Shown here piece after piece: positions 61,206 through 62,323 of a stretch of DNA of 64,000 nucleotides; position 1 is the stretch's first letter; the number at the start of each line of letters is the position of its first letter. A program made the position numbers and the translations under genes. The DNA comes from Halosimplex salinum (GTDB taxonomy: Archaea > Halobacteriota > Halobacteria > Halobacteriales > Haloarculaceae): positions 310,001-374,000 of the forward strand of contig NZ_QWGG01000003.1 in assembly GCF_003730195.1 (NCBI RefSeq). The letters run 5' to 3'. Under the pieces are notes generated by a model, which was not told the origin of the DNA, did not search any database, and saw nothing but the letters and a program-made list of their open reading frames with translations.

Positions 61206-61556
61206 TTACTCGGGGTTGAGGTCGTCCCAGAGCTGACTGAATCGGTCGGGGAGGTTCTCCTCGCGGTAGATGCGCACCTTGTACTCGTCGTCCTCGAGAG
61301 AGATGACCGTCGACTCGAAGTTCGACTCGTACACCTTGTAGTGGTTGCCGTCGTCCGCGACGAGCGTCTGGTCCGTCACGAGATCGTACTGGTTGAGCAT
61401 CTCGATGCGCCGGTAGACGGTCGGTAGCGACAGGTCACACTCCTCGCTCAGTTCCTTCGCCGACCGGGGCTCGCGACTGAGCGCGGCCAGCACCCGCCGA
61501 GCGTGTTCGTCGCCGATAGTATCGAGTATCTCCTCGATTGCCCGTTCTTCGTCCAC
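61206..61556 (-). CDS. Winged-helix transcriptional regulator (ArsR-like)
   Basis: The 116-residue protein has an N-terminal winged helix (HARRVLAALSREPRSAKELS, then ECDLSLPTVYRRIEMLNQYDLV) and a C-terminal beta part (VISLEDDEYKVRIYREENLP). It is the regulator usually paired with the small membrane protein downstream. The GGTCTATATAACACC promoter lies at 61577-61591, 25-30 bases ahead of ATG 61556. The signal is unknown. Confidence 0.85.
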   Translation of the reverse strand: MDEERAIEEILDTIGDEHARRVLAALSREPRSAKELSEECDLSLPTVYRRIEMLNQYDLVTDQTLVADDGNHYKVYESNFESTVISLEDDEYKVRIYREENLPDRFSQLWDDLNPE

Positions 61557-61576
61557 TACCGGTGTGATCTCTCGAG

Positions 61577-61591
61577 GTGTTATATAGACCT
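61577..61591 (-). promoter_or_regulatory. TATA promoter of the winged-helix regulator gene
   Basis: On the minus strand the sequence reads GGTCTATATAACACC, with CGAAA just upstream as a possible BRE. Its distance to ATG 61556 is about 25-30 bases. This is a strong TATA match and supports the chosen start. Confidence 0.8.
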
Positions 61592-61634
61592 TTCGAGGGT
61601 GAGCTCTTTCAGGCTCAGAAAACGCCCCTGCCCC

Positions 61635-61995
61635 ATTATACGAATCCCCTCACTACCCAGTGATGCGGACCAAGTGTGAGCCCGAGCGGCCCATCGCACC
61701 GTGCGCATCCGTGTGTGCCAGTGGTGGGGTGTGGGTTCGTCCGATCCGCGGGCGGGAGGTCGAGACCACGCCTGACGGCGTTCGACGCTCCCCCGCGGAC
61801 CGGTACGGGCCGCCCGGGCTCGCATGCGGTCCTCGCCGGCACGAGCGCGCTGCCGGAGGTCGGTTCCGGTGCCATTCCCCCTATGCGTCTCCCCCGACGC
61901 AAATCGGAACCGAACGGGTCTCACGACCCGCCGGCTATCCCCCTGCCGGGCCTCCGTTGCCCGCCTTCCGGTGGACTTCCCCCTTATTCCCCCCA
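61635..61995 (+). ncRNA. Candidate structured RNA with five consecutive hairpins and repeated T(C)5 motifs
   Basis: There is no convincing ORF on either strand from 61557 to 62146. Plus strand: a TATA-like ATTATA at 61635-61640, then five perfect or near-perfect hairpins. These are 61745-61799 (long, nested), 61836-61856 (CCGGCA arms), 61862-61911 (GGTTCCG arms with inner TGCGTC-TCCCCC-GACGCA), 61915-61930 (CGGGTC-TCAC-GACCCG) and 61931-61949 (CCGGC arms, TATCCCCCT loop). Five T(C)5 runs occur in loops or linkers at 61877, 61891, 61939, 61979 and 61989. If transcribed from the other strand the motif becomes GGGGGA. It does not match RNase P or SRP RNA features. Transcript ends are guesses. 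Confidence 0.45.
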
Positions 61996-62146
61996 ACAAT
62001 TTCGACCCGTCCCAGCGACGGGCTCGCCCGTGACCCGCGACCAGTAACCGCGCTCCGACGACCGCCGGGCCCGAGCCGTCGCTACCGAACTCTCGTCGAC
62101 GCGCGTCGTGTCACGAAAAAACGGTAGAACGGTTCGTCGTCGTGTC

Positions 62147-62323
62147 TCAGGCCGGAGACCAGCCGCATACCGAGCACTCTGTCGCGGCCGTTTCGTGCAG
62201 TCCTCCGCAGTCGGGGCACTGCTTCTTGTTGTAGTTCTCTTCCCAGCCCGTCGCCTCGACGTCGTGTCCACGGTCGGTCAAGAACTCGTCGAACATGTCG
62301 TCGGTGCTCGGTGCGGACGCCAT
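62147..62323 (-). CDS. HVO_0416-like zinc-finger protein, 58 residues
   Basis: The 58-residue protein starts MASAPSTDDMFDEFLTDRG and has CPDCG near 38-42 and CSVCG near 51-55, a classic double-CxxC zinc site. It matches from memory the HVO_0416 family of small haloarchaeal zinc-finger proteins. ATG 62323 was chosen because a CTATATGC box on its strand lies about 27 bases upstream; the longer frame to 62350 lies over that box. Confidence 0.8.
   Translation of the reverse strand: MASAPSTDDMFDEFLTDRGHDVEATGWEENYNKKQCPDCGGLHETAATECSVCGWSPA

Follow-up and report, generated by a model that had tools for sequence, protein, structure and literature searches.

A putative structured RNA with repeated C-loops beside a winged-helix regulator gene in Halosimplex and related haloarchaea

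Large structured stand-alone regulatory RNAs are, to our knowledge, few in archaea. RNAs of the CsrB/RsmZ type carry repeated GGA motifs in hairpin loops that are bound by the protein CsrA. The staphylococcal IsrR is a C-rich-region sRNA in which, according to the accessible part of its report, the C-loops act by base pairing, and selectivity is tied to the scarcity of G-runs outside Shine-Dalgarno sites in an AT-rich genome (PMC9410917). Among haloarchaea, the 138 nt sRNA132 of Haloferax volcanii folds into two stems, lies beside HVO_1405, has been reported only in Haloferax and has a regulon that includes HVO_0416 (PMC6560208). No protein-titrating RNA in haloarchaea is described in the literature that we found, and titles and abstracts, with incomplete coverage of subscription papers, contained no description of the RNA presented here.

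The stretch of DNA analysed (the window) comprises 64,000 nucleotides of the 5.07 Mb genome of Halosimplex salinum. A putative structured RNA of about 330 nt, the C-loop RNA, occupies positions 61664..61997 of the plus strand, with both ends placed by conservation. It resembles the CsrB/RsmZ RNAs in being a stand-alone RNA with many copies of one short single-stranded motif in its loops and linkers, but differs in the motif itself ([U/A]CCCC(C)), in its archaeal host and in having a large conserved core that is not a repeat. Membership of that type is not supported, as the loops on the supported plus strand carry C-runs and not GGA. With IsrR and the other Firmicutes C-rich-region sRNAs, compared by their description in the accessible part of the report, it shares several unpaired C-rich loop stretches of four to seven C (PMC9410917); it has no known sequence relation to them, shows no bacterial-type intrinsic terminator and belongs to a high-GC archaeon in which G-runs are common. 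Like sRNA132 it would be an intergenic haloarchaeal sRNA that stands alone under its own promoter and includes a single-stranded, pyrimidine-rich portion (PMC6560208). That candidate looked promising because its paper names HVO_0416, a family member of which adjoins the C-loop RNA, yet HVO_0416 appears there only as a regulon member (PMC6560208); identity was ruled out by the different neighbouring genes and by the length of ~330 nt versus 138 nt. Archaeal RNase P RNA (RF00373), which is likewise structured and ~330 nt long, was rejected, since the genome has its own copy at C22:159189-159539 and no Rfam family matched at the locus. A search with the Rfam 15 covariance models gave no match at the gathering score anywhere in the window, the best sub-threshold hit having an E-value of 1.1 and lying off the locus. 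The proposal of a new regulatory RNA with repeated C-loops, made in the initial annotation of this DNA, thus gains from the lack of a Rfam match as well as from the conservation and compensatory changes described below, and a regulatory role is probable.

The C-loop RNA lies between a divergent winged-helix regulator gene (HTH_20; 61206..61556, minus strand), which is its conserved left-hand neighbour and for which, at the cut-off applied, 117 of the 146 family genomes yielded orthologues, and a convergent gene on its right for a zinc-finger small protein of the HVO_0416 family (62147..62320, minus strand). A conserved element on the plus strand, TTTCAGGCTCAGAAAAC (TTTCA-N6-GAAAA; 61607..61623), is common to the PadR promoter of sister genera. 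It is followed by a TATA-like ATTATA on the same strand (61635..61640), in place of which the homologues keep TTATR, TTAAG or TTAAT. This box had been read as preceding a start at about 61663, which agrees with the homologue alignments: it lies ~25 nt upstream of the conserved 5' end on the plus strand, and we infer that transcription would start from it at about 61662-61666. The winged-helix gene has a promoter-like stretch of its own at 61578-61598 that faces the RNA promoter; in relatives the same stretch reads GAAAACGCTTATAT on the minus strand and resembles the element of the RNA and PadR promoters.

Each of the seven other Halosimplex species conserves positions 61562-61997 at 74-86% identity, and all seven alignments stop between 61983 and 61997, at the last C-run. 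Recognisable copies were also found at the same locus in three genomes (G014, G033 and G023) of two further genera (g8 and g17), all of which retain the promoter element, the first bases, the core and the C-runs. The most conserved part is a core within domain I (61695..61737, plus strand) with the invariant alignment columns CGCACYGUGCGCAUCCGUGUGUGCC..GGUGGGGYGUGGGUU. Among GTDB contigs the exact core pattern occurs in three named Halosimplex species, three Halobacteriales MAGs and two bacterial contigs, the last two being taken as chance matches. A model (R1) run on the 146 genomes of the family and on 292 sampled from the class gave no confident member beyond Halosimplex, g8 and g17, although very divergent members could escape it because the filters were strict. 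A stand-alone non-coding structured RNA encoded on the plus strand is, on comparative grounds, the best explanation of the region.

Six runs of at least five C begin at 61790, 61877, 61891, 61939, 61979 and 61989; these six lie within ~200 nt, and nowhere else in the 64 kb window are C-runs so dense (the runner-up has 3 per 280 nt). All eleven homologues contain between four and seven such runs and none has a run of five or more G in the RNA. The initial annotation had placed repeated T(C)5 motifs in hairpin loops and linkers, and the runs are indeed located there and are mostly predicted to be unpaired on the plus strand. The C5 runs in the internal loop between P4 and P5 (61877..61881), in the P5 hairpin loop (61891..61895) and in the P7 hairpin loop (61939..61943), all on the plus strand, have predicted probabilities of being unpaired of 0.98, 1.0 and 1.0 respectively, and the plus-strand 3' tail (61979..61994; CCCCCUUAUUCCCCCC) adds a C5 and a C6 run, read from the letters and the homologue alignment. 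For the runs of domain II this probability is ~1 in most species, compared with 0.30-0.41 averaged over all C, and the C5-C8 runs are mostly predicted to be single-stranded. Exceptions are single runs in L009, L010 and L011, which are predicted to be partly or mostly paired, and the domain I run (61790..61794, plus strand), which is predicted to be paired in the window species and mostly unpaired at the equivalent site in the other genera. The run itself is kept, and its flanks vary ([U/A]CCCC).

The five hairpins first described between 61745 and 61949 were found at those positions, but the conserved structure is predicted to consist of two long-range domains and not of five consecutive local hairpins. 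Domain I is closed by the long-range helix P1, in which the 5' arm (61667..61684; GGACCAAGUGUGAGCCCG) pairs with the 3' arm (61815..61832), both on the plus strand, so that the extreme 5' end GGACC... meets ...GGUCC. Both arms carry compensatory changes, and inner P1 is rebuilt in g8 and g17 with different pairs (GGGCAC/GUGCCC, AGGCAAC/GUUGCCU and GGCGGG/CCCGCC). P1 and the inner helix have standard pairs in 89.5% of cells versus 27-49% with slid partners, and double changes in 10 cells versus 3.7 +/- 1.9 in shuffles, in a model-fitted alignment. This alignment is fitted to the structure, and one of its 12 rows is a weak match of L010 on the reverse strand. A plain MAFFT alignment of seven sequences gives 90.5% pairing versus 30-50% slid and a covariation score above all but one of 500 shuffles, with a count of doubly changed pairs no higher than in shuffles.

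Domain II (61834..61973, plus strand) is predicted to form a multiloop of the hairpins P4/P5, P6 and P7 closed by P2 (61834-61839/61968-61973). Its further helices on this strand are P3 (61854-61859/61951-61956), P4 (61861-61868/61905-61912), the C-loop hairpin P5 (61884-61901), P6 (61915-61930) and the C-loop hairpin P7 (61931-61949); P5 and P7 correspond to the C-loop hairpins of the initial description that end at 61901 and 61949. P2 to P5 are present in 10-11 of the 11 homologues, P6 and P7 are kept in Halosimplex, and P2, P6 and P7 carry pair-preserving changes such as C-G to U-A. The arms of P2 to P7 were picked from folds before their presence and pairing were checked in the homologues, and these helices are therefore supporting rather than blind evidence. 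A hairpin at 61741-61803 was found within Halosimplex only, and P1 and P2 have a competitor in a GC palindrome around 61806-61843.

We inspected the DNA adjoining the winged-helix gene in about 88 genomes and found the same slot to be filled in different ways. The C-loop RNA occupies it in Halosimplex, g8 and g17. In four genomes of g4 (G029, G010, G059 and G062; loci L061, L065, L095 and L098) it holds a shorter stretch that is rich in C, resembles a transcript and begins with GGAUC.... In each of the four, this beginning matches an arm further downstream at 12-13 of 13 pairs to give a covarying closing stem, the pairs varying from species to species, and all four stretches have AUCCCCCCAGGUGUCG in common; they probably represent a distinct class at the same locus. 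G060 has a similar closing stem with no C5 run inside, and G061 lacks the feature. A PadR-family gene fills the slot in g6, g21, g3, g14, g20 and G106 of g12, in the last of which no zinc-finger gene was found beside it. The slot is empty or holds other genes in g2, g7, g13 and the inspected regions of g18, g10, g43, g9, g15 and g16. Two g6 genomes (G066 and G079; loci L129 and L130) lack both PadR and a C-run array but have a promoter-like stretch; between this element and the zinc-finger gene extends a long region that is GC-rich and prone to hairpins.

The PadR gene mostly stands behind the same TTTCA-N6-GAAAA element, and its leader begins with UGCGGAUC or a similar sequence; homology of the promoters of the RNA and PadR slots is well supported by these comparisons. 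Many haloarchaeal messages are leaderless. The PadR leaders (L059, L060, L062, L128 and others) end with AGGTGA a few bases 5' of the ATG, likely a Shine-Dalgarno site. Among 59 relatives, the RNA-bearing genomes gave no match to this PadR gene at E-values up to 1e-8, and a tree of the neighbouring gene (26 rows) does not separate a PadR-to-RNA order from an RNA-to-PadR order.

C-loop hairpins were also found downstream of PadR when its 3' UTR was scanned at 25 loci. In seven g6 genomes (L173, L177, L178, L179, L180, L182 and L185) the hairpins present a 9-nt loop, [A/C]CUGACCCC, that is invariant on differing stems with compensatory changes (for example GACG/CGUC, GACC/GGUC, GACU/AGUC and GGCU/AGCC), and G080 and G077 have two such hairpins in tandem. 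Four more g6 genomes and G112 show C5-C7 in 3' UTR loops; the scan detected no C-loop hairpin at L175, L181, L183, L186, L062, L063, L068, L188 and L189. Head-to-tail CTTTCGACCCCCCTTATCGAAAG hairpin repeats were noticed downstream of PadR at L127, and G114 has a CTTTCGACCCCCCTTATCGAAAG array at G114:C6:134087-134196 and again near the start of a second contig (G114:C2:170-279). Elsewhere in the family C6 arrays are mostly low-complexity runs, together with the PadR 3' UTR of G112 and G114 at the RNA locus. The 3' C-loop parts of the RNA are likely homologous to those of the PadR 3' UTR, a relation that rests on a short motif.

The function that we favour, with a probability of roughly 0.4, is titration: the C-loop RNA may work by sequestering a factor that binds C-runs. 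Several copies of one binding site are suggested because exposed C-runs recur with variable neighbours. An RNA with such repeated unpaired runs would soak up a factor recognising short C-runs, following the logic of CsrB without belonging to its family, and the hairpins in the PadR 3' UTR could be sites for the same factor. We count against this reading the predicted pairing of the domain I run in the window species, the partial pairing of some runs in L009-L011, the lack of C-loop hairpins in some PadR 3' UTRs and the base-pairing mode of staphylococcal C-loop sRNAs such as IsrR. A broader interpretation, which we put forward tentatively and with more doubt than confidence, is that a single promoter slot beside the winged-helix gene serves different transcripts in different genera, a PadR mRNA with a C-loop 3' UTR in some and a non-coding C-loop RNA in others; such a switch between message and non-coding RNA, in either direction, would keep the binding sites and define a new archaeal family of titrating RNAs. 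The locus offers a natural comparison, as the same promoter element and C-loops accompany a PadR gene in certain genera and occur without one elsewhere, so that the gain or loss of a coding part by a regulatory transcript could be studied. The architecture of the C-loop RNA itself is clear, and the parts that can be tested are few: the promoter, P1 and the C-runs.

The main competing explanation, a possible one that we find somewhat doubtful, is a trans-acting antisense RNA whose C-loops pair with G-runs of mRNAs and alter their translation or stability. The C-run is the conserved unit, and the exposed runs in loops and tail recall the three C-rich regions of IsrR, as given in the accessible part of its report (PMC9410917). 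However, C-runs alone would choose targets poorly because a GC-rich genome has G-runs beyond its ribosome-binding sites, and no wider conserved seed surrounds the runs. The mRNAs of the neighbouring winged-helix, zinc-finger and DUF7521 genes contain no G5 run, and a different role would have to be found for the large conserved core and the two-domain fold.

We consider it unlikely that the core and P1 form a scaffold or ribonucleoprotein RNA with a partner of its own, the C-runs being processing or termination signals. The core is the most conserved part, the last C-runs coincide with the end of conservation, and the C-loop hairpins 3' of the PadR stop codon stand where terminators would be. 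At least three C-runs are nevertheless internal to the RNA and lie in loops, and the second RNA class (G029 and G010) lacks such a core and carries its C-runs well away from the 3' end. Archaeal aCPSF1 termination is moreover tied to U-tracts in the accessible text of its report (PMC8716108), and a search for C-rich signals in archaeal FttA termination turned up no paper.

The initial annotation held that the strand could not be decided from the letters and considered CsrB-type GGA loops on the minus strand; with homologues the RNA can be assigned to the plus strand, because the promoter element, the TATA box and the conserved 5' end lie on it, the C-runs are mostly unpaired on it and its fold is better, all of which speaks against the GGA loops. 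In the window species positions 61660-62000 give z -5.2 on the plus strand, with none of 100 shuffles as stable, and the minus strand also folds beyond shuffles (z -3.1). The plus strand beats dinucleotide shuffles in all eleven homologues (z -1.9 to -5.5), whereas the minus-strand effect is weaker in ten of them and fades outside Halosimplex, down to z -0.8. A function at the DNA level, such as quadruplexes of the G-rich strand, or a minus-strand RNA is very improbable on this evidence.

A coding gene or pseudogene with incidental hairpins, for example a decayed PadR gene, can be dismissed as scarcely credible, for even though PadR fills the same slot in sister genera and the high GC content of the DNA produces long chance open frames in several reading frames, the helices carry compensatory changes and a 30-sequence PadR profile with filters off shows no similarity in six frames, which also excludes a PadR remnant inside the RNA. 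The earlier observation that no convincing reading frame covers the hairpins was borne out, as each Halosimplex homologue differs from the window by four to six indels with lengths not divisible by three, so that no coding frame is conserved.
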